From Zoogloea sp. (GTDB taxonomy: Bacteria; Pseudomonadota; Gammaproteobacteria; Burkholderiales; Rhodocyclaceae): a stretch of 64,000 bases of DNA. This document shows positions 868 through 11,883 of this stretch, one piece after another (the first letter of the stretch is position 1; the number at the start of each line of letters is the position of its first letter). The notes beneath the pieces were generated by a model that saw only the letters and a list, made by a program, of their open reading frames with translations, searched no databases and was not told the DNA's origin. Both the position numbers and the translations under genes were made by a program. The stretch is taken from NCBI RefSeq assembly GCF_028689785.1, contig NZ_JAQVCN010000010.1:28993-92992 (forward strand), in the 5' to 3' direction.

Positions 868-2295
868 TCACGTAGACGCATCACCAGGCTCCTGTTGCGG
901 CTCCCGCCCTTCGCCTGACGACTCGGCAGCGGCGGGAAACACCACCACTATTGCCAACCCCTCACCGCCGTCCTTGCGCACCAGGCCTGGCCCAAAGCTC
1001 AGGCGCGCACCAAGAATGCGCACAATGCGGGCAACGATGGACAGGCCCAGACCGCAGCCCTCCGCATCCTCGTCACTGCCCCTGGCAAAGCGCGTCAGCA
1101 TCTTGTCCCGCAGGGCCGGCTCAATGCCCGGTCCGTCGTCCGCTACCTTCAGGCGGCGACCCTCGACATCCACCGTCACATGCACTGCCCCGCCTTCAGG
1201 GGTATAGCGCAACGCGTTATCCACCAGATTGCGCAGCAAGACCTCCAGCCACCAACGGTTGCCAAGCACCTGCAGCATCCCCTGGGCATCCAGCGACAGG
1301 CTCTGCTGACGACGCAAGGCCTGAGGTGCCAGGGCGGAACAGATGCTGCGTGAAAGTTCAACCATATCCACCCTTGGCCCGTCCGCAAGAGCCGCGTCGG
1401 GATCCAGGCGGGCCAGGGTGAGCAGCTGCTCGACAAGATGCGTCATCCGGTCGACCCCGGAGAGCACCTGCGCCAACGCATGCCCGCGCACGCCTGCATC
1501 GGCGGCCCGATGCGCCACCTGGGCCTGAACCTTGAGGGCGGCCAGGGGCGTGCGCAGTTCGTGGGCAGCATCCGCAGTGAAGCGGCGCTCATTGTCGAGG
1601 GCCTCTCCGAGGCGCTGCACCAGCGCATCCAGGGAACTCACCAGCGGCGCGATCTCGGCCGGAACGGGGCCCTTGATCTGCACCGGAGTCAGATGGCTGG
1701 GGCTCAGCCCCCCTAGCGCGGCGGCCACCGCATCCACCGGACGCAGCGCCCGCCCCACCACCACCCAGATCCCCAGGGCAATGAGGGGCAGACCAATCAG
1801 GATGGGAGCAAGCAGGTGCAGCGCAATCTCACCAGCCAGCCGGTAGCGGGCCCCATGGTTCTGGCCGACGATCACCCGGTAACGGCTGTGGTCATGATCC
1901 ACGGTATAGAAGCGCCACAGCTCCCCCTGCTGATCGTGCTCGTCAAAGCCCGGCCCCCGCGTTGCCGGCACATCCGGCATTTCCGCCGAGCGCACCAGCA
2001 GGCGCCAGCCCTCGCCCGTTTCCTCGCGCTGCCAGGCCTGGAAAGCCACCGGCAACTGGTAGTCATGCTGGTGCTCGGCCATTTCATGAGCCACGTGCTC
2101 GGGCTCCCCCGCCGCAACAATAGCCAGCAGGGTTTCCGCCACCTGTACAAGTTGAGCATCGAAAAGCTCATCCGCCTCACCGTGGGCGGTACGGAAGGCC
2201 ACCATGGCCGACAGGCTCCACAACACGGCGACCACCGCAATCAACAGGCCCACCAAGCGGCGACGCAGGGAATAGACTTGCCGCACCCCACTCAT
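868..2295 (-). CDS. Sensor histidine kinase (QseC/TctE-like)
   Basis: This 475-aa inner-membrane kinase is the sensor of a two-component system. It has an N-terminal membrane helix (about residues 14-36), a periplasmic loop of about 115 residues, a second helix (about 156-180), a HAMP-like linker and a dimerisation domain with the phospho-acceptor His at 245 in FTADAAHELRTPL. The ATPase domain shows the N-box NLVDNALRY, the G1 box VADDGPGI and the G2 box GCGLGLSIV. Its start overlaps the end of the response-regulator gene by 4 nt, so the two are co-translated. Divergence from a metal-efflux operon suggests it senses periplasmic metal; that is inference, since QseC, PmrB and TctE relatives sense different signals. 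Confidence 0.93.
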   Translation of the reverse strand: MSGVRQVYSLRRRLVGLLIAVVAVLWSLSAMVAFRTAHGEADELFDAQLVQVAETLLAIVAAGEPEHVAHEMAEHQHDYQLPVAFQAWQREETGEGWRLLVRSAEMPDVPATRGPGFDEHDQQGELWRFYTVDHDHSRYRVIVGQNHGARYRLAGEIALHLLAPILIGLPLIALGIWVVVGRALRPVDAVAAALGGLSPSHLTPVQIKGPVPAEIAPLVSSLDALVQRLGEALDNERRFTADAAHELRTPLAALKVQAQVAHRAADAGVRGHALAQVLSGVDRMTHLVEQLLTLARLDPDAALADGPRVDMVELSRSICSALAPQALRRQQSLSLDAQGMLQVLGNRWWLEVLLRNLVDNALRYTPEGGAVHVTVDVEGRRLKVADDGPGIEPALRDKMLTRFARGSDEDAEGCGLGLSIVARIVRILGARLSFGPGLVRKDGGEGLAIVVVFPAAAESSGEGREPQQEPGDAST

Positions 2296-2957
2296 CGTGC
2301 CGCCTCATCGATCAGGTAACCAACCCCGCGCACCGTCCGGATCAGATCGCTCCCCAGCTTGCGGCGCAGATGGTGGATGTGGACCTCCAGCGCATTGCTT
2401 TCCACGGCATCGCCCCACGCATACAGCTGCTCCTCCAGCACCCGCCGCGTCAGCACCCGTCCGGCAGCATCGAGCAATACCCGCAACAGGTCGAACTCCC
2501 GACTGGTCAGGCTCACCGCCTCACCGCGCAGCATCACGGTGCGGGCCGCCGGATCGATGACCAGCTCACCGTGACGCAAGCAGGCGTCGGCTCGCCCGCT
2601 GGCACGGCGCACCAGGGCACGCAGGCGCGCCGCCAGCTCGTCAAGATCGAAGGGTTTAACCATGTAGTCGTCAGCGCCCAGATCAAGACCCCGCACCTTG
2701 TCGGATATCTGGTCCCGGGCAGTAAGGATCATCACCGGTACGGCGTTGCCGGCACTGCGCAGGCTGCCCAGCACCGACAAGCCATCCCGCCGGGGCAGCC
2801 CAAGGTCGAGAAGGACAGCGGCAAAGCCCTCCCCCGCCAGCGCAGCCAGTGCTGCCTCGCCATCGCGCACCCAGTCGACGACGAAACCCGCGGCAGCCAG
2901 CCCCGCCTGCACACCGTCGCCCAGCATTCGGTCATCCTCCACCAGCAAAACCCGCAT
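2292..2957 (-). CDS. OmpR/PhoB-family response regulator
   Basis: This 221-aa DNA-binding regulator is the partner of the adjacent kinase. The receiver domain (about 1-115) has the acidic pair D8/D9, the phosphorylation site D51 (LLDLGLP), T79 and K101 in MVKPF. The C-terminal winged helix (about 125-218) ends with the typical HIHHLRRKL...IRTVRGVGYLI recognition region. It is closest in pattern to the QseB/PmrA/TctD branch, whose members bind direct repeats of CTTAA-like half-sites. Exactly such repeats lie 60-110 bp upstream of this gene, so it probably controls both itself and the divergent efflux operon. It is the first gene of a two-gene operon. Confidence 0.95.
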   Translation of the reverse strand: MRVLLVEDDRMLGDGVQAGLAAAGFVVDWVRDGEAALAALAGEGFAAVLLDLGLPRRDGLSVLGSLRSAGNAVPVMILTARDQISDKVRGLDLGADDYMVKPFDLDELAARLRALVRRASGRADACLRHGELVIDPAARTVMLRGEAVSLTSREFDLLRVLLDAAGRVLTRRVLEEQLYAWGDAVESNALEVHIHHLRRKLGSDLIRTVRGVGYLIDEAAR

Positions 2958-3017: not shown

Positions 3018-3066
3018 CTTAATCAAAGCTTAAGACTGCCCGCAACCAGGCTTAAGCTTGCCTTAA
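3018..3066. promoter_or_regulatory. Phased CTTAA array (response-regulator operator)
   Basis: The divergent promoter region contains CTTAA at 3018, 3029, 3051 and 3062. The two pairs CTTAA-N6-CTTAA are each spaced 11 bp start to start and are 33 bp apart, so all four half-sites lie on one 11-bp phase; the missing position at 3040 holds a degenerate CCGCAA. PmrA- and QseB-type OmpR regulators are known to bind CTTAA-N6-type direct repeats. The array sits between the regulator start (2957) and the efflux adaptor start (3117), suggesting cooperative binding by the adjacent regulator. Confidence 0.7.
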
Positions 3067-3116
3067 GGCCGCCGCCGCAAAATGAGGCTATCCCAATCTC
3101 CGTCCTGCCTACCCCA

Positions 3117-4211
3117 ATGCTTGCCGGCCTACCCACCCTCTCGCTCCTCGCCGCTCTGATCACCGCTGGCGTCCGCCCGGTCGCCGCCGAATCCGGCGCA
3201 AATTTCATTGCCCTGACACCGGCCCAAAGCGCGGCGCTGGGCATCACCACCCGTCCGCTGGAAGCCGCCGGCAGCGCTGCGGCAACCGGCCTGCCTGCCA
3301 CAATAAGCATTCCCAACGCCCAGCAAAGAGTGATTGCCGCACCACTGGCCGGCGTCATCGAGCAGCTCGAAACCGCCCCCGGCCTCAATGTGGGCAAGGG
3401 CCAGGTGCTGGTGCGCATCAGCAGCCCGCAGGCTCTCGAACTACAACGCGACCGCCTCCAGGCCGACGCCCAGGCAACCCTCGCCCGCCAGAGCCTGCAG
3501 CGGGACGAACAGCTCTATCGGGAGGGCTTGATCGCCGAATCCCGCCTCCAGGCCAGCCGGGCCAACGCCGCCCAGGCCGCAGCCCAGGCCGCCGAACGCC
3601 GCCAGGAGCTGACCCTGGCCCAACACAGCGGCGGCCACACCCTCAGCCTGGTAGCCCCCATCGCCGGCAACGTGCTTGAGCAGCATGTCAGTGTCGGCCA
3701 GCGGGTCGAACAGTCCGCCCCCCTTTATCGCATCGCCCGACTCGATCCGCTGTCCGTGGAAATCCAGGCTCCCCTCTCTGTGGCCAGCCAGGCACGGGTC
3801 GGCACGGCACTGCGCATTCCTGCAGCGGGTGCCAGTGGCGAGCTGGTGGCCGTCGGCCGGGCGGTGGACCCAGCCAACCAGAGTGTGCTGTTGCGTGGTC
3901 TGATCACCCGGGGGGCCCAGAACCTGCGCCCCGGGCAGGCTGCCACCGTAGACCTGGAATTGCCCGCCGCAGCATCGGGCACCGGCAGCGCCCGCGTGCC
4001 CATGGCCGCAGTACTGCGTCGCCTGGACCGGCAATGGGTTTTCGTGGTCAGCCGGGACGGCAACGCCACCGGCTATCGGGCCATGCCAATACTCGTCGAG
4101 GGCCGGGTAGGCGACTCAGCCATCGTCACCGGGCTCCCCGGCAACGCGGTGATCGTGACCGGCGGGGTGGCCGCGCTGAAAGCCAACTGGCTGGGCATCG
4201 GAAAGGAGTAA
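3117..4211 (+). CDS. Heavy-metal RND efflux periplasmic adaptor
   Basis: This 364-aa membrane-fusion protein links the inner-membrane RND pump to the outer-membrane channel. The long ORF in the track begins far upstream, inside the divergent regulator, and is not credible. The ATG at 3117 gives a proper signal peptide (MLAGLPTLSLLAALITAGVRP, cleaved near VAAES). It is followed by a lipoyl/barrel-sandwich half (VIAAPLAGVIEQL), an alpha-helical hairpin rich in A, Q and R (about residues 108-165), the second lipoyl half (SLVAPIAGNVLEQHVSVGQRV) and a beta-barrel domain. It is the first gene of a four-gene efflux operon, with a 4-nt gap to the pump gene. No metal-binding extension is visible, so metal specificity is undetermined. 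Confidence 0.9.
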   Translation: MLAGLPTLSLLAALITAGVRPVAAESGANFIALTPAQSAALGITTRPLEAAGSAAATGLPATISIPNAQQRVIAAPLAGVIEQLETAPGLNVGKGQVLVRISSPQALELQRDRLQADAQATLARQSLQRDEQLYREGLIAESRLQASRANAAQAAAQAAERRQELTLAQHSGGHTLSLVAPIAGNVLEQHVSVGQRVEQSAPLYRIARLDPLSVEIQAPLSVASQARVGTALRIPAAGASGELVAVGRAVDPANQSVLLRGLITRGAQNLRPGQAATVDLELPAAASGTGSARVPMAAVLRRLDRQWVFVVSRDGNATGYRAMPILVEGRVGDSAIVTGLPGNAVIVTGGVAALKANWLGIGKE

Positions 4212-4215
4212 GCCC

Positions 4216-7200
4216 GTGCTCTCCCGCCTCATCGAATTCTCCCTCACCCAGCGCCTGCTGGTCGCCGTCGCCACCCTGCTGCTGATCGGCGCGGGTGTCG
4301 TCGCCTGGAACGGCCTCCCGGTGGACGCCTTTCCTGACGTCTCCACCACCCAGGTCAAGCTCATCATCAAGGCGCCCGGCATGACGCCGGAGGAAGTCGA
4401 AGCACGCATCACCGTGCCCATCGAACAGGAGATGCTGGGCATTCCGCATCAGCGCCTTCTGCGCTCCACCTCCAAGTACGCACTGGCTGACGTGACCCTC
4501 GACTTTGACGACGGCACCGACATCTACTGGGCACGCCAGCAAGTCGGCGAGCGCCTCGCCGGCGTCATGGACAAACTGCCTCCTGGCGCCACTGGCGGAC
4601 TCGCCCCGATCACCACACCGCTGGGCGAGATGTTCATGTTCACCATCGAAGGCCCCCTGTCCCTGGAAGAGAAACGCAGCCTGCTCGACTGGACGATCCG
4701 GCCGGCCCTGCGCACGGTGGCCGGCGTTGCCGACGTAAATAGCCTGGGCGGAGAAGTACGCAGCTTCGAGATTGTCCCCGACCCTGCGGCCCTGGCAGCC
4801 CGCGGCCTGAGCCTGGCTCAGCTGCAGGCCGCTCTGGAGAGCAACAACCGCAATGACGGCGCGGGGCGCCTCAACGAGGGCGAAGAGACCCTGCTGGTAC
4901 GCGCCGAAGGTGCGATTCTGACTCTCGACGACGTGCGCGCCATCGTGCTGGGGAAGAGTGCGGGCGGCGTGGTCCGCGTCGGCGATGTGGCCGAGGTCCG
5001 GACCGGCGGACTGACCCGCTACGGCGCCGTCACCCGCGACGGCGCCGGGGAGGCGGTGCAGGGCCTGGTCCTCGGCCTGCGGGGTGCCAACGCCGGCAAG
5101 GTCGTGAACGGCGTCAAGGCGCGCCTCGCAGAACTCACCTCGGCACTGCCCCAGGGGGTCAGGATCGAGGTCTTCTACGATCGCAGCGAACTGGTCGGGC
5201 GGGCTATCCATACCGTTTCCAAGGCCCTGGTCGAGGCCATCGTGCTGGTGCTGGTACTGCTCCTGGCCTTCCTGGGCAATCTGCGGGCCGCCGTGGTTGT
5301 GGCGCTGATGCTGCCCCTCGCCGCCCTGGCCACCTTCATCGCCATGCGTGGCGTGGGACTGTCGGCCAACCTGATGAGCCTGGGCGGCCTGGCCATCGCC
5401 ATCGGCATGCTGGTGGATGCTGCCGTGGTGGTGGTCGAGAACATCGAGACCCAGCTATCGGCCAACGGTGCAGCCGCCCGCCAGCCATTGCTCCACCTGA
5501 TCTTCCGGACCACCCGGGAGGTCGCTGCGCCGGTCGCGTCGGGCATTCTCATCATCATCATCGTCTTCCTGCCTCTGCTGACCCTGGAAGGGCTGGAGGG
5601 CAAGCTCTTTGGCCCGGTGGCCCTGACCATCGTGTTCGCCCTGTCGGCCTCGCTGATCCTGTCCCTCACCGTGGTGCCGGTGCTGGCCTCTTTCCTGCTG
5701 AAGCGGGGCGAGGCCCACGAGCCCTGGCTGGTACGCAAGCTGCAGGCTGGCTACATGCCCCTGCTCCACATGGCCCTGGCCCGGGGGCGTCTGGTGGGCG
5801 CCTTCGCCGGGGCTTCACTGGTGGCCGCGGCCGTCGCCTACCTGGCTCTGGGCAAGACCTTCATGCCCACTATGGACGAGGGCGACATCATCATGCAGTT
5901 GGAGAAGCTCCCCTCCATCAGTCTGGCCCAGGCCATCGCCACCGATCTGAAAGTGCAGCAGGCAATCCTGAAGGCTGTGCCCGAGGTGCGGTCCATCGTG
6001 GCCCGCGGCGGCTCCGACGAGCTTGGTCTCGACCCCATGGGTCTCAACCAGACCGACACCTTCATGGTTCTCAAGCCCCGGGACGAATGGCGCCAACCCG
6101 ACAAGGAGTGGCTGGCGGATCAGCTGCGCGGGGTCATGGAGAACTTCCCCGGCATCGCCCTCACCTTCACCCAACCCATCGACATGCGGGTCTCGGAGAT
6201 GCTCACCGGGGTGCGCGGAGACCTGGCGATCAAGCTCTACGGGCCAGACCTCCCCACCCTGAACCGTCTGGCCAGCGAGATCGAAGCCGTGGTGAAGGGC
6301 GTTCCCGGCGCCGAAGACACCCTCACCATCCGCAACGAAGGCGTGCAGTACCTGAAGATTCGAGTCGACCGCCTGGCTGCCGGCCGCTTCGGGCTCAATG
6401 TGGAAGACATCCAGAACACTCTGCGCAGCCTCCTCGAAGGCCGTCTGGCTGGCACCGTCATCGAGGCCAGCCGCCGGGTTCCCCTGCTGATCCGCGGCCC
6501 GACCAGCCTGCACCAGGATCCGGAGGCCTTCGCCGCAGTGCGTATCACGGCACCCGATGGGCAAAGCCTGCCCTTGGGCAGCGTAGCGAGCATCGAACGG
6601 GTGGATGGCCCGGTGAAGGTGGACCGGGAGAACGCCCAGCGTTACTCGGTGATCCAGTCCAACGTGCGTGGCCGTGATCTGGTCGGCTTCGTCGATGAAG
6701 CCCGCGCCGCGGTAGCTGCCAAGGTGCCGCTGCCGCCCGGCTACCGGCTCGCCTGGGGTGGCCAGTTTGAAAACCAGCAGCGTGCCGCGGCCCGCCTCGG
6801 CATTGTGGTGCCGATCGCCCTCGGCCTGATCTTCGTGTTGCTCTTCTCCACCTTCGGCTCGGTACGCCAGGCTCTGCTGGTCCTGGCCATGGTGCCCTTC
6901 GCCATGGTCGGCGGCATCTTCGCGCTGGCCCTGTCTGGTGAATACCTGTCGGTACCGGCGTCGGTAGGCTTCATCGCCCTGCTGGGCATCGCGGTACTGA
7001 ATGGCGTAGTCATGCTGACCTACTTCAACCAGCTTCTGGCCCGAGGCATGCCCATCGACGAGGTGGTGGTGGAAGGCGCCCGACGACGCTTGCGTCCGGT
7101 GCTGATGACCGCCAGCATCGCCGCCCTCGGCCTGGTGCCGCTGCTCTTCGCCACCGGCCCGGGCTCCGAAGTGCAACGCCCACTGGCCATCGTGGTGATC

Positions 7201-7302
7201 GGCGGTCTGGTCAGCGCCACCGCCCTGACCCTGCTCCTGCTGCCGCTCCTCTACCGGCGCTTCGGCGTCACCCCCACAGCTCCCGAGGTGCATGCACCAT
7301 GA
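4216..7302 (+). CDS. CzcA/CusA-family heavy-metal RND pump
   Basis: This 1028-aa proton-driven inner-membrane pump (HME-RND family) exports metal ions across the envelope. The N-terminal helix is followed by DAFPDVSTTQVKL, the family's signature periplasmic entry. Twelve membrane helices are arranged as 1 + 5 + 1 + 5 around two large periplasmic loops. The TM4 proton-relay motif reads AIAIGMLVDAAVVVVENIE with Asp near residue 401. This AIG...VDAA form resembles the monovalent (Cu/Ag, CusA-like) and related subgroups rather than the DFG...DGA form of Co/Zn/Cd CzcA pumps; that assignment is tentative. The start is GTG with GGAG about 6 nt upstream. The 3' end overlaps the DUF3240 gene by 4 nt. 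Confidence 0.95.
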   Translation: MLSRLIEFSLTQRLLVAVATLLLIGAGVVAWNGLPVDAFPDVSTTQVKLIIKAPGMTPEEVEARITVPIEQEMLGIPHQRLLRSTSKYALADVTLDFDDGTDIYWARQQVGERLAGVMDKLPPGATGGLAPITTPLGEMFMFTIEGPLSLEEKRSLLDWTIRPALRTVAGVADVNSLGGEVRSFEIVPDPAALAARGLSLAQLQAALESNNRNDGAGRLNEGEETLLVRAEGAILTLDDVRAIVLGKSAGGVVRVGDVAEVRTGGLTRYGAVTRDGAGEAVQGLVLGLRGANAGKVVNGVKARLAELTSALPQGVRIEVFYDRSELVGRAIHTVSKALVEAIVLVLVLLLAFLGNLRAAVVVALMLPLAALATFIAMRGVGLSANLMSLGGLAIAIGMLVDAAVVVVENIETQLSANGAAARQPLLHLIFRTTREVAAPVASGILIIIIVFLPLLTLEGLEGKLFGPVALTIVFALSASLILSLTVVPVLASFLLKRGEAHEPWLVRKLQAGYMPLLHMALARGRLVGAFAGASLVAAAVAYLALGKTFMPTMDEGDIIMQLEKLPSISLAQAIATDLKVQQAILKAVPEVRSIVARGGSDELGLDPMGLNQTDTFMVLKPRDEWRQPDKEWLADQLRGVMENFPGIALTFTQPIDMRVSEMLTGVRGDLAIKLYGPDLPTLNRLASEIEAVVKGVPGAEDTLTIRNEGVQYLKIRVDRLAAGRFGLNVEDIQNTLRSLLEGRLAGTVIEASRRVPLLIRGPTSLHQDPEAFAAVRITAPDGQSLPLGSVASIERVDGPVKVDRENAQRYSVIQSNVRGRDLVGFVDEARAAVAAKVPLPPGYRLAWGGQFENQQRAAARLGIVVPIALGLIFVLLFSTFGSVRQALLVLAMVPFAMVGGIFALALSGEYLSVPASVGFIALLGIAVLNGVVMLTYFNQLLARGMPIDEVVVEGARRRLRPVLMTASIAALGLVPLLFATGPGSEVQRPLAIVVIGGLVSATALTLLLLPLLYRRFGVTPTAPEVHAP

Positions 7303-7619
7303 ACCCTGCCACCGACGCCGGCATCGTGCTGACCCTGGTGTTCCCCATAGAAGTGGAAGACGCCCTGCTCGAAACCCTGCTCGAACACCCGGAGCTGGCC
7401 CCCGGCTTCACCTCCCAGCGGGTCGAGGGCCAGGGCCAGCGGGTCACCTTCATCGGCACAGCCGAACATGTCCGTGGCCGCGCCGCCTGCTGCCGGGTGC
7501 AGCTGGTGGTGCCCCAGGCAAGTGCCGACCAGCTACTGGACATCCTGCGCCGAGAATTCGCTTCGAGCCGGGTGTTCTTCTGGATGGTGCCGGCCCTCGC
7601 CAGCGGGAGACTTTCCTGA
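7299..7619 (+). CDS. DUF3240 family protein
   Basis: This 106-aa soluble protein resembles DUF3240, a small family repeatedly found in heavy-metal RND operons. It begins with a beta strand, VLTLVFPIEVEDALLETLL, continues through GFTSQRVEGQGQ and ends with an FFWMVPALASGRL tail, suggesting a ferredoxin-like (PII or ACT-like) fold. There is no signal peptide, so it should be cytoplasmic. Both ends are translationally coupled: ATGA overlap with the pump gene, and the stop TGA shares a base with the next ATG. A regulatory or metal-sensing role for the pump is plausible but not established. Confidence 0.8.
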   Translation: MNPATDAGIVLTLVFPIEVEDALLETLLEHPELAPGFTSQRVEGQGQRVTFIGTAEHVRGRAACCRVQLVVPQASADQLLDILRREFASSRVFFWMVPALASGRLS

Positions 7620-8887
7620 TGCGCCGCCTCCTTGCCCTGTTCGCCCTCAGCCTGCCCGCCCTCGCCCAGGCTGGCGCGGCCGCCTCAGCCCCCGACCTGC
7701 CGCCTGAATCCCAGGCCCTGGCAGCCCTGCGCGGCAGCCCTCTGGTGGACGCCGCTGGCGAAAACATCGAAGCCCAGGAAGCCCGCGCCCGACGCCTGGC
7801 AGCGGGCGCCCACGAATGGACCCTGAGCCTCGGCGAGCAGAGCCGCCGCGTCCGCACCACACCTCAAGGGCGTTACACCGAATGGGATGTAGGCCTGGAG
7901 CGGGCTCTGCGCCTGCCCGGCAAGCGCGATCTGGATGTCCAGCTGGGCGCTGCCGGCGTCAACGTGGCACGGATCGGTCGCGGGGATGCCCTCCATGAGG
8001 CAGGCCGTGGCCTGCTGGCAAGCTGGTTTGAATGGCTGCGGGAACAAGCCGCCGCTACCCAATGGCAGCAGCAGCGAGACAGCCTGACGCGCCAGGCCCA
8101 GGTGGTCAGGCGCCGCGTCGAACTTGGCGACGCGCCGCGCCTGGAGCGCCTGCAGGCCGACGCTGCCCTCGCCCAGGCCAGCGCCCAGCTGGCCCAGGCC
8201 GAAGGCCGGGCGCGGGTTGCCGCAGAGCGCCTGCGCCGCCACTACCCGGCCCTGAGCCTGCCCGGCGCTGTGCCGGAGATTGCTCCGGCCGCGCTGGATG
8301 GCGGCACCGACGCGTGGGTGGAGGCCATACTCCAGCACAATCATGAACTCGGCCTGGCCCGGGCGGAGAGTGCCCGGGTCCGCATCGGTGCCAGCCGCAG
8401 CGAGGCAGAGCGCCGCCCCGACCCGAGCATTGGCGTGCGCATGGCCCGCGAAAGAAGCGGCGAGGAGCGCCTGCTGGGGGTGAGCCTGAGCATTCCCCTG
8501 CCGGGCGAAGGCCGCCGTGCCGACAGCGACGCAGCCCTCGCCGACGCCCGAGCCAGCGCCCACCGGGAAGCCGCCGTGCGCCGCCGGGTGGAAGCCGAAG
8601 CCGCGGCCCAGTATCAACGCGCCGTATCGGCCCGCGCCGGCTGGCACAGTCAACAGTCCGCTGCCGAAGCCCTGGCAGGCAGCGCGGACCTGATGGAGCG
8701 CGCCTGGCAACTGGGTGAAGGCACGCTGGCAGATACCCTGGCCGCCCGCCGGCTTGCCCATGAGGCACGCCTGGCCGCCCAGCTCGCCAGACTGGAAGCC
8801 AGCGAGGCCCGCTACCGGCTCCTGCTCGACGCTCACCAGCTGTGGGCGGTGGACGAGGACGAGCACCCCGGGCATGGGGAACCCTGA
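7619..8887 (+). CDS. TolC-family outer-membrane efflux channel
   Basis: This 422-aa protein is the outer-membrane component of the tripartite metal exporter. The track's longer ORF starts inside the upstream gene; the ATG at 7619 is coupled to the preceding stop and gives a signal peptide (MRRLLALFALSLPALAQAG). The mature part contains two OEP repeats with long Ala/Arg/Gln-rich amphipathic helices, typical of the TolC tunnel, and VSLSIPLPGEGRRADSDAAL in the second repeat. It belongs to the CzcC/CusC-like branch by context. It is the last gene of the efflux operon. At 422 aa it matches CzcC-type channels. Confidence 0.9.
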   Translation: MRRLLALFALSLPALAQAGAAASAPDLPPESQALAALRGSPLVDAAGENIEAQEARARRLAAGAHEWTLSLGEQSRRVRTTPQGRYTEWDVGLERALRLPGKRDLDVQLGAAGVNVARIGRGDALHEAGRGLLASWFEWLREQAAATQWQQQRDSLTRQAQVVRRRVELGDAPRLERLQADAALAQASAQLAQAEGRARVAAERLRRHYPALSLPGAVPEIAPAALDGGTDAWVEAILQHNHELGLARAESARVRIGASRSEAERRPDPSIGVRMARERSGEERLLGVSLSIPLPGEGRRADSDAALADARASAHREAAVRRRVEAEAAAQYQRAVSARAGWHSQQSAAEALAGSADLMERAWQLGEGTLADTLAARRLAHEARLAAQLARLEASEARYRLLLDAHQLWAVDEDEHPGHGEP

Positions 8888-8928: not shown

Positions 8929-9498
8929 ATGTCGTTCGTCATAAGCGTCGAACGCCCCGTGCCCGCCTCCCTGCCCCCCATCATCGACGTAGAGGCCTCG
9001 GGCTTCGGCGCCGCCAGCTATCCGATAGAGGTCGGCCTGGTGTTATCCGACGGCAGCAGTTACTGCACCCTGATCCGCCCCGAAGCCCGCTGGACCCACT
9101 GGGACACCAGCGCCGAAGAGGTGCATCTGGTGAGCCGGGAGACCCTGCTGAGAAATGGCCGGACGGCCGCCGAGGCGGCCCGCGAGCTCAACGCACGGCT
9201 GCGGGGGATGACGGTTTACTGCGACTCCTGGTACCACGACTTCACCTGGCTGAGCCGGCTCTTCGATGCCGCCGAGTGCCCCCAGGCCTTCCGCCTGGAA
9301 GACATCCGCACCCTGCTCAACGAAGCCCAGGCCGAACACTGGCATGCCACCCGGCTGCAGGTGCAGGCCGATCTGTGCCTGCCCCGGCACCGGGCCAGCA
9401 ACGACGCCCGGATCCTGCAAGCCACCCTGGGCCGGGTGCGGGCCGCCTGGGGCAGCCCTGCCCCGGCCCGGAGCGAGGCTCAGAAGGCCACGCGATAA
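8929..9498 (+). CDS. DEDDh-type 3'-5' exonuclease-like protein
   Basis: This 189-aa protein has the motifs of the DEDDh (RNase T/DnaQ) nuclease fold: IIDVEASGFG (D20, E22), YHDFTWLSRL as motif II and HRASND as the HxAxxD motif III, all consistent with two-metal catalysis. It is a stand-alone exonuclease with no other domain, so substrate (DNA or RNA) is not determined. The start used is the ATG at 8929, which lies inside a TAGAAT hexamer (8925-8930); if that is a -10 element, a downstream start such as the GTG at codon 11 would be needed. The 3' end overlaps the convergent YfiM-like gene by 19 nt. Confidence 0.8.
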   Translation: MSFVISVERPVPASLPPIIDVEASGFGAASYPIEVGLVLSDGSSYCTLIRPEARWTHWDTSAEEVHLVSRETLLRNGRTAAEAARELNARLRGMTVYCDSWYHDFTWLSRLFDAAECPQAFRLEDIRTLLNEAQAEHWHATRLQVQADLCLPRHRASNDARILQATLGRVRAAWGSPAPARSEAQKATR

Positions 9499-9833
9499 CT
9501 CACCCCGGACGGGCCGAGGAGCCAATTGCCGGTGCGCACACCCACGTAGGCACCGGCGGCATTCCAGGCCATGTCCTTCCACGAGAACCGGTTGCAGTCC
9601 CGCGTACTGTCATAGAACTCCTTGGCCACGCCAGGCACCAGGGCCAGGCCGACCGCCGTCCAGGTATCGTCGGACAGGCGCGAGGCCCCGACACCGAGCG
9701 CCAGGGACACCCCGAAGTGGGCAGCCTTGTCGCTGCCGGTCCAGTCGTCGTGGTGAGGTCCGCAAGCCGCGGCAGCAGTACTCAGGATGGTCAACAGCGC
9801 AAAGGCGGAGAGCCGGATTGGCAGGGTTTTCAA
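9480..9833 (-). CDS. YfiM-like small exported protein
   Basis: This 117-aa protein begins with a signal sequence (LPIRLSAFALLTILSTAAAAC) whose Cys could be a weak lipobox. It carries WTGSDKAAHFGVSLALGVGAS followed by two hydrophobic segments, a pattern I associate with YfiM/DUF2279-like proteins of unknown function. The start is an unusual TTG: the codon at 9831-9833 reads TTG on the minus strand and is preceded by AGGTGATTC; no in-frame ATG serves. It is a single gene, convergent with and overlapping the exonuclease gene by 19 nt and divergent from the cytochrome b gene. Family assignment is moderate and function unknown. Confidence 0.65.
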   Translation of the reverse strand: MKTLPIRLSAFALLTILSTAAAACGPHHDDWTGSDKAAHFGVSLALGVGASRLSDDTWTAVGLALVPGVAKEFYDSTRDCNRFSWKDMAWNAAGAYVGVRTGNWLLGPSGVSYRVAF

Positions 9834-9952
9834 GAATCACCTCATCATCAAATAATGTGTCGTCAGCATGATACGGAAGTGTGTGACGTCCTGAATGCTT
9901 TTGCCTGGCGCACATGTCAGAATCCGGCGCACTATCGTTCAAGGAGCACGTG

Positions 9953-10642
9953 ATGCATGAAATCCGGATCTGGGATCTGCCCCTGCGACTATTTCACTGG
10001 ATGCTTGCGCTGGCCGTGACCGGAGCAATGATCAGTGGACAGATCGGTGGCAATCTGATGATCTGGCACGGCCGGCTGGGCATCCTGATCGCCGGCCTGC
10101 TCGGTTTTCGTCTGGCCTGGGGCCTGGTGGGGTCCACCCACGCCCGCTTTGCGAGCTTCGTACGCGGCCCCGGAGCGATCCTCGCCTACCTGCGCGGCGA
10201 ATGGCGCGGGCTGGGGCACAACCCGCTGGGCGCCCTGTCTGTGCTCGGCATGCTGACAGCCCTGGGGCTACAGACTGCGGGCGGGCTCTTCGGCAACGAC
10301 GACATCGCCTTTCAGGGGCCCCTGTACGCCCTGGTTTCCAAGGACACCAGCGACTGGCTGAGTGGCCTGCACCGCAAGGGCTTCTGGCTGATCCTGTTGC
10401 TGGTGCTCACCCACCTGGGCGCCATTGTGTTCTATCTGCGGGTGCACCGGGACAACCTGGTGCGCCCCATGATCACCGGTCGCAAGGCTGTCGCAAATCC
10501 TGACGGCCTGGCGCAGGCCCAAGGGGGTGGCATCGCGGCGCTGATCCTTGCCATCGGCATCGGGGTAGGCACGGGCTTTGCGGCCAGCGGTGCCTGGCAG
10601 CCCCCACCGCCCCCCGAGCCGGCTGCAGCACCGGCCTGGTAG
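9953..10642 (+). CDS. Cytochrome b561-type dihaem membrane protein
   Basis: This 229-aa integral membrane protein belongs to the bacterial cytochrome b561/Ni-hydrogenase b-subunit family. It begins IWDLPLRLFHW, the family hallmark with haem-ligand His15, followed by His39 in WHGRLG and later His in LHRKG and LTHLG. Four core membrane helices carry electrons between quinone and a periplasmic haem protein. A fifth hydrophobic segment and a proline-rich tail (QPPPPPEPAAAPAW) follow. The start at 9953 is chosen because AAGGAG lies 6-7 nt upstream; the track's earlier ATG has no such site. The convergent cytochrome c' gene next door is a candidate partner. Confidence 0.9.
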   Translation: MHEIRIWDLPLRLFHWMLALAVTGAMISGQIGGNLMIWHGRLGILIAGLLGFRLAWGLVGSTHARFASFVRGPGAILAYLRGEWRGLGHNPLGALSVLGMLTALGLQTAGGLFGNDDIAFQGPLYALVSKDTSDWLSGLHRKGFWLILLLVLTHLGAIVFYLRVHRDNLVRPMITGRKAVANPDGLAQAQGGGIAALILAIGIGVGTGFAASGAWQPPPPPEPAAAPAW

Positions 10643-10724
10643 GGCAGACCACTGCGGGCCCGCGAGCAGGCTGCGGTGCGAGCAGCGGGACTCGGGCAGC
10701 AGGAGAGAGGCTGCGCCGTATTGC

Positions 10725-11192
10725 TTATTCGTCCTTGCGGAACTTGTCGTGACAGGCCTTGCAAGATTCTCCCGTCTTGCCGAACTGCACCTTGATCGCT
10801 GCCACGTCCCCGGTGGCTGCCACCTTCTGCAGCTCGTTGGCTTCCTTCACGAACGAGACGGCCAACTTGCGGACCTCGTCCTGCTGCTGGAAGAACTCGG
10901 GCTTGACCCGGGTCTTCTGGCTGCCGACATCCTTATCGGTAGCTGCGCCAAAGAGGGCGCCCATGCCAGAGTTGGCAGTGGCGGCGATCAGGTTAGCTGC
11001 AGCCAGCACCTGGTCCTTGTTGAAACTGGAGGGGTTGTCGATGGTCTGGGCCTTGATCTTGCCCATGTTCCACGACATGAAGGAATAACCCGCCTTGCGG
11101 AACTTGATCTGATCTTCCGGCTTGACCTGGGCGCTGGCCCCGGTACCAAGGCCCAAAATCAGGGCGGCAAAAAGCGCTTGTTTGATCTGCAT
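10725..11192 (-). CDS. Cytochrome c' (class II c-type cytochrome)
   Basis: This 155-aa periplasmic haem protein has a signal peptide (MQIKQALFAALILGLGTGASAQ), a four-helix-bundle length and a single C-terminal haem site CKACH. Arg/Phe-rich helix 1 (IKFRKAGYSFMSWNMG) matches cytochrome c', whose five-coordinate haem binds NO and protects against nitrosative stress or shuttles electrons. A GGAG sits 8 nt before the ATG. The DUF3365 haem protein gene lies 124 bp upstream on the same strand, so the two could share a transcript. Confidence 0.92.
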   Translation of the reverse strand: MQIKQALFAALILGLGTGASAQVKPEDQIKFRKAGYSFMSWNMGKIKAQTIDNPSSFNKDQVLAAANLIAATANSGMGALFGAATDKDVGSQKTRVKPEFFQQQDEVRKLAVSFVKEANELQKVAATGDVAAIKVQFGKTGESCKACHDKFRKDE

Positions 11193-11316
11193 GAATTCAC
11201 TCCGGTGTGATTGAAATCGAGAAACGGCCTGGCCGGTGCTCTAGCAGAGCCGGGCGCAGCCGCCGGGCGGATTATTCCATAACGCTGGGAAAAACCGCCC
11301 CCACAACAGGGTGAAA

Positions 11317-11883
11317 TCAGAGCGGGCGCCAGACCGTCAGGGCACCGCGGATCTGACCTTTTTCATAGCCGAAGGCCCGGTCGAGGGGATAATTACGGGC
11401 CAGTTCGCTCTTCAGCCCGGCCTCGATCTGCTCTGCCGCACCATGACACTTGAGGCACACGTCACCAACGGGGATGGCACGCATGTAGCGGAACATCGGC
11501 TTGCCGTTCTCGGTGACGATCTCACCCGTTTCCAGGCTCTCGATCTTCTCTCCGGCGGCGGCGCGAATATTGAAATCGGCAAGCTGACGTGCTTCCCAGG
11601 TGTCGGGCGTGCCCCGCTCGGGATTACGGGTCTTCAAGCTGACCCGGGACATCTTCCAGCCAGTTTTTTCCGACTGCTCCTTGAGCAGCTGCGGCGCCTT
11701 TTCCTTGCACACCGGGATGGCTTTGACCACGCCCTGGCTGGCGACCGTCTCCTGCATCATCGCAACCACCTTCGGCAACACCGGCAGGGCATTCTTGCGG
11801 GTATCCAATTTCAGGGTTTCCACGTCCTGGGCGTGGGCTGAGCCGGCCACCAGCGCAGCAGTCACAAGAGCAATACGTAGCAT
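11317..11883 (-). CDS. DUF3365 (Tll0287-like) periplasmic c-type haem protein
   Basis: This 188-aa protein has a short signal peptide (MLRIALVTAALVAGSAHA) and one haem motif CLKCHG near residue 143, after IPVCKEKAPQLL. The DUF3365 fold is a PAS-like sensor domain with covalent haem, seen alone or at the periplasmic end of sensor proteins. Here it stands alone, so it may act as a soluble redox or gas-binding protein. AAAGGA lies 6-7 nt before the ATG. The upstream region has a TATATT hexamer and a 16-bp interrupted palindrome. It precedes cytochrome c' on the same strand. Confidence 0.85.
   Translation of the reverse strand: MLRIALVTAALVAGSAHAQDVETLKLDTRKNALPVLPKVVAMMQETVASQGVVKAIPVCKEKAPQLLKEQSEKTGWKMSRVSLKTRNPERGTPDTWEARQLADFNIRAAAGEKIESLETGEIVTENGKPMFRYMRAIPVGDVCLKCHGAAEQIEAGLKSELARNYPLDRAFGYEKGQIRGALTVWRPL

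Follow-up and report, generated by a model that had tools for sequence, protein, structure and literature searches.

Two back-to-back CTTAA boxes as predicted operators of a QseB/PmrA-type response regulator at a metal-efflux locus of Zoogloea sp.

Two CTTAA-N6-CTTAA boxes, 33 bp apart, are located between a divergently transcribed regulator-kinase gene pair and a metal-efflux operon in the window, i.e. the complete analysed stretch of 64,000 nucleotides of Zoogloea sp. DNA. They are likely to be two back-to-back operators of the neighbouring response regulator, from which the efflux operon and the regulator-kinase operon would both be activated in the class II manner. In the proposed switch each box would take up one head-to-tail regulator dimer on half-sites 11 bp apart and would cover the -35 region of its own promoter, with the -10 element exactly 10 nt downstream. 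Box 2 would serve the efflux operon, czcBA-DUF3240-czcC; the regulator-kinase operon would be served from the minus strand by box 1. Activated by the kinase, the regulator dimer would replace the -35 element and recruit the sigma-70 polymerase (class II), with the outcome that the genes of the pump and of the regulator-kinase pair are both switched on. We infer binding by the regulator, activation and not repression, phosphorylation and a metal signal. The features of the locus are as follows, with window positions and strand.

868..2295, minus strand: sensor histidine kinase, QseC/PmrB-like, with 2CSK_N sensor domain (profile matches)
2292..2957, minus strand: OmpR-family response regulator of the QseB/PmrA group, with recognition helix SNALEVHIHHLR (Pfam Response_reg and Trans_reg_C)
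3007-3002, minus strand: GAGCAT, predicted as the -10 element of the regulator operon, at a distance of 10 nt from box 1
3018..3034, minus strand: box 1, read as CTTAAG-CTTTG-ATTAAG, predicted regulator-facing operator (autoregulation), found with the composite motif
3051..3067, plus strand: box 2, CTTAAG-CTTGC-CTTAAG, predicted core operator of the efflux promoter, kept upstream of czcB
3078-3083, plus strand: CAAAAT, predicted as the -10 element of the efflux operon, at a distance of exactly 10 nt from box 2
3117..4211, plus strand: czcB-like periplasmic adaptor of the efflux pump (RND_mfp, above the NCBIfam cutoff)
4216..7302, plus strand: CzcA/CusA-family heavy-metal RND permease (TIGR00914)
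7299..7619, plus strand: small DUF3240 (P-II-like) protein of the efflux operon (profile match)
7619..8887, plus strand: czcC-like outer-membrane efflux protein (Pfam OEP)

The CTTAA half-sites start at positions 3018, 3029, 3051 and 3062, in steps of 11, 22 and 11 bp, exactly where the initial annotation had placed two CTTAA-N6-CTTAA repeats. Its assignment to the PmrA/QseB-type sites also holds, as both boxes are exact for two direct YTTAAK hexamers with a 5-bp spacer. Because CTTAAG, the hexamer at three of the four half-sites, is a palindrome, box 2 is perfect and box 1 carries one mismatch on the minus strand; on the plus strand box 1 reads as a perfect CTTAAT-N5-CTTAAG. CTTAA has 14 strand-matches in the 64 kb of the window versus 19.5 expected, and seven of these 14 fall inside this 50 bp. 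With up to one mismatch, CTTAA-N6-CTTAA has four strand-matches in the window versus 0.20 expected, all of them at this locus, which also holds three of the five exact strand-matches in the 5.08 Mb genome. A chance cluster or an 11-bp minisatellite deserves next to no credence as the origin of the four half-sites. Most CTTAA arrays among the public-genome matches listed are indeed 11-bp minisatellites (the scan for four-half-site arrays is biased and was used for gap lengths and context only), but in the window the spacers differ from unit to unit, and the box is kept across genera at one promoter position, with a dinucleotide-shuffle expectation near zero; a minisatellite origin was rejected. 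These are genuine sites of a known type, and they are well conserved.

The DNA upstream of czcB orthologues was compared in 55 genomes, with Zoogloea species included where enough upstream sequence was available. CTTAA-N6-CTTAA was present in all 21 Zoogloea species (18 exact, three with one mismatch) and, at up to one mismatch, at 19 of the 34 czcB loci of other genera, for which dinucleotide-shuffled sequences gave a mean of 0.1; at this threshold it was not found at the remaining 15 loci, some of which are probably not true orthologues. The conserved form is CTTAAK-N5-CTTAAK. Among spacers of 0 to 25 none other than 6 came near the conservation of spacer 6 in this set, and within the boxes the relatives always keep the 11-bp spacing. 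The box stays at czcB in genomes where the regulator gene is distant or on another contig (G003, G007, G015, G016 and G019-G021), and therefore belongs to the efflux promoter. Upstream of the orthologous efflux operons one box is kept, and not a strict 11-bp phase over four half-sites.

The predicted -10 element CAAAAT of the efflux promoter lies 33 bp upstream of the czcB start codon. Counted from the promoter-proximal box, an xAxxxT hexamer occurs exactly 10 nt past the second half-site in 37 of 38 orthologous promoters (17 of 17 outside the genus), and any other -10 offset was never seen in more than six of the 38. Both marks of class II promoters, a site overlapping the -35 and a fixed distance to the -10, were found, the distance being these 10 nt. 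As far as promoter elements can be read from sequence, a box over a weak -35 with a fixed 10-nt spacing is the class II activator geometry of PhoB and PmrA. In class II pho-boxes the direct-repeat dimer site of PhoB overlaps the -35 (PMC3348028), the spacing from the site to the core promoter is strict (PMC10294691), and PmrA is thought to activate in the PhoB manner (PMC3973317). The Zoogloea box shares with the pho-box the direct repeat over the -35 and the strict spacing, whereas half-site and regulator differ. A different -35/-10 reading, TTAAGG-17-GGCTAT at 3063/3086, was dropped for CAAAAT at 3078, since the aligned promoters place the -10 at 10 nt.

Box and -10 were combined into the composite motif TTAAK-N6-TTAAK-N11-A-N3-T, with the reversed motif as control. 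It has four matches in the 5.08 Mb genome (control 0), two of which are the pair in the window, at 3052-3083 on the plus strand (czcB side) and 3033-3002 on the minus strand (regulator side); 24 Zoogloea genomes gave 63 matches versus eight for the control.

On the regulator side the predicted -10 element GAGCAT lies 44 nt from the regulator ATG. The 10-nt geometry facing the regulator is identical in G010, G005 and G022. In G009 and G011 one shared box fits this geometry on either strand, with CATGAT at 10 nt. The regulator-side -10 is at 11 nt in G023, and at 10 nt it is absent in G013 and G001. The sequences that back it are fewer, and closer relatives of one another, than those behind the -10 of the efflux side. 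In G017 and G018 the divergent operon apparently consists of cytochrome b561, regulator and kinase and has upstream half-sites of its own, with a -10-like hexamer 10 nt on in a reading by eye. One operator per promoter is the simplest reading of these sequences, and the placement to control both divergent operons, as originally proposed, agrees with the promoter geometry present on both sides. Box 1 might alternatively be an auxiliary high- or low-affinity site of the efflux promoter only, with a regulator operon that is not autoregulated. The perfect plus-strand hexamers of box 1 and the missing regulator-facing geometry in G013 and G001 speak for such a site; it is nevertheless unlikely, given the full composite motif on the minus strand with its -10 spaced at 10 nt, which is kept in four species, and the outward geometry seen by inspection at the box beside the cytochrome b561-regulator-kinase operon of G017 and G018.

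The regulator scores best against the QseB equivalog NF007663 (269.6 bits, cutoff 345), followed by the PmrA equivalog NF007928 (241.5 bits, cutoff 330) and the cztR/silR/copR heavy-metal model TIGR01387 (186.7 bits, cutoff 279.2). As the best scores fall under the cutoffs, it is placed in the QseB/PmrA group but is neither of the two by the curated tests; the best-scoring model of the kinase is QseC, yet also under the equivalog cutoff. The closest solved structure is PmrA/BasR. With the DNA-touching residues of Klebsiella pneumoniae PmrA as reference set (PMC3973317), the regulator is identical at nine contact residues (N188, E191, V192, H193, I194, H195, R198, R171 and R210) and shows the conservative changes T187S and K153R. 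The H193/H195 pair is absent from all 15 closest regulator paralogues in this genome, and the same SN..EVH(I/V)H helix is found in almost all regulators adjoining CTTAA arrays elsewhere. Linkage of the regulator gene with the efflux genes extends to other genera, in one operon in G035 and G045 and nearby in G049. Boxes, geometry, conservation and PmrA-type base-reading residues are all present in the sequences themselves, and the boxes are very probably the operators of the adjacent QseB/PmrA-type response regulator.

That another regulator reads these sites, or that the box represses instead of activating, is quite unlikely. OmpR-family regulators can also repress from other positions, but the box over a weak -35 with its fixed 10-nt spacing has the geometry of an activator. 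An orthologue of the regulator was not found in Zoogloea G004, G006 and G008 (L198, L200, L244), which keep a slightly degenerate czcB box; another reader of the box, or a loss in progress, is possible in these three. Against a different reader in the genome studied here stand the PmrA-type base-reading residues, confined to this regulator among its closest paralogues.

Beyond the single boxes, it had been proposed that all half-sites share one 11-bp helical phase. This phase is exact in the window and the 11-bp spacing within the boxes is kept, but the distance from box to box is not: it is 33 bp in the window genome (G000) and G010, 43 in G005, and about 34 and 22 bp to the upstream boxes, with one mismatch, of G017 and G018, and a single box is all that most Zoogloea relatives have. 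The supposed degenerate fifth half-site at 3040 has to be given up, as CCGCA agrees with CTTAA at two of five positions and there is no conservation there.

These observations bear on the reading of the four half-sites as one phased array, on which two regulator dimers would cooperate on one face of the DNA and switch both promoters together. A search for back-to-back boxes with both -10 elements in 399 genomes from the order and 369 from the class delivered distances of 33, 22, 32, 33, 37, 41, 41, 42, 41, 42, 22, 20 and 48 bp. For the pairs adjoining a related regulator or cytochrome b561 gene, together with G005 and Marinobacter (33, 43, 42, 41, 42, 33, 33, 37, 22 and 32 bp), the Rayleigh R is 0.70 with a simulated p of 0.0046, and the distance of 33 bp recurs at unrelated loci, e.g. 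in Marinobacter. With close lineages merged and the genus of the window left out, p rises to 0.09. The clusters of outward pairs at 20-22, 32-33 and 41-43 bp correspond to about two, three and four turns of 10-10.5 bp, not to multiples of 11, and the best period is broad (9.5-10.5). The tendency of outward pairs across the class towards whole helical turns is suggestive, and a phased contact may exist. A phased array is still doubtful at this locus, considering the range of distances from 22 to 43 bp, the many single boxes, the higher p value for merged lineages, the broad period and the lack of conservation at 3040. A varying distance from box to box, at a fixed distance from box to promoter, separates the idea of independent operators from that of phased cooperation.

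At L044, L056, L057 (Marinobacter), L382-L384 and L387, too, CTTAA boxes lie back to back, with their -10 elements outward, next to a related regulator-kinase pair. The divergent gene is not a pump at these loci: at L382-L384 it belongs to a 162-aa family with a Tat-like signal, and the Marinobacter loci and L387 share a family of 232-239 aa.

Among known systems, the PmrA box of Klebsiella/Salmonella pbgP and others likewise consists of two direct hexamers CTTAAT/CTTAAG with 5 bp between them (PMC3973317), and the base-reading residues of K. pneumoniae PmrA are matched by the Zoogloea regulator. In contrast to the PmrA box, the Zoogloea boxes are two, placed back to back, and adjoin a metal RND pump and the regulator's own operon in a betaproteobacterium, with control being predicted and the regulator under the PmrA cutoff. 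The QseB site, of the type CTTAA-N4-6-CTTAA/CTTAG, is alike in half-site sequence, and QseB/QseC are the best models for regulator and kinase, both under the equivalog cutoffs; the QseB site of Glaesserella capD is CTTAA-N4-CTTAG (PMC10714720), whereas the Zoogloea spacer is strictly 6. CusR, CopR and AgrR are likewise OmpR-family regulators adjoining a metal RND operon. For AgrR a class II position was suggested (PMC7380067), but AgrR reads the inverted repeat ATKACA-N4-TGTMAT and the Zoogloea sites are direct repeats of CTTAAG.

Elsewhere in the window genome a composite box is located 39 nt upstream of a di-haem cytochrome c peroxidase gene (G000:C91:28751-28782, L279) and another 66 nt upstream of a DUF5666 lipoprotein gene (G000:C5:103587-103618, L278), the latter with a similar box sequence in G010. 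The combination of composite box and di-haem cytochrome c peroxidase, translated and checked, was found in G000, G002, G003, G011, G012 and G014. Other genes downstream of the motif encode a cytochrome c with flavocytochrome c sulfide dehydrogenase, a DUF1924 cytochrome and a ferric-reductase-like membrane protein. These downstream genes suggest that the system may answer to periplasmic metal or redox stress and not to one metal. The motif TTAAK-N6-TTAAK-N11-A-N3-T finds likely targets of this QseB/PmrA-like regulator branch in betaproteobacteria, and a single regulator would link the metal-efflux pump with genes for di-haem peroxidase and cytochromes. A literature search of incomplete coverage delivered nothing directly relevant on a CTTAA box with metal-efflux or cytochrome genes.

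The permease scores 1058.5 bits against the CusA/CzcA model TIGR00914 (cutoff 701). Its nearest solved relatives are ZneA and CusA; the membrane motif AIGMLVDAAVVVVEN is CusA-like in look, and the overall score is higher for ZneA. The DUF3240 gene sits between czcA and czcC, and the efflux operons of G035, G045 and G049 keep DUF3240 too. The sensor region of the kinase (window 2292-868, minus strand) contains a His-rich stretch, HVAHEMAEHQHDY, at which several Zoogloea relatives have EMAEHQHxY in a reading of the DNA; this stretch might bind metal. Downstream of the efflux operon, window positions 9480-11883 hold genes for cytochrome b561, cytochrome c' and a Tll0287-like protein, and because some of these genes adjoin the regulator gene in relatives, the locus has been rearranged.
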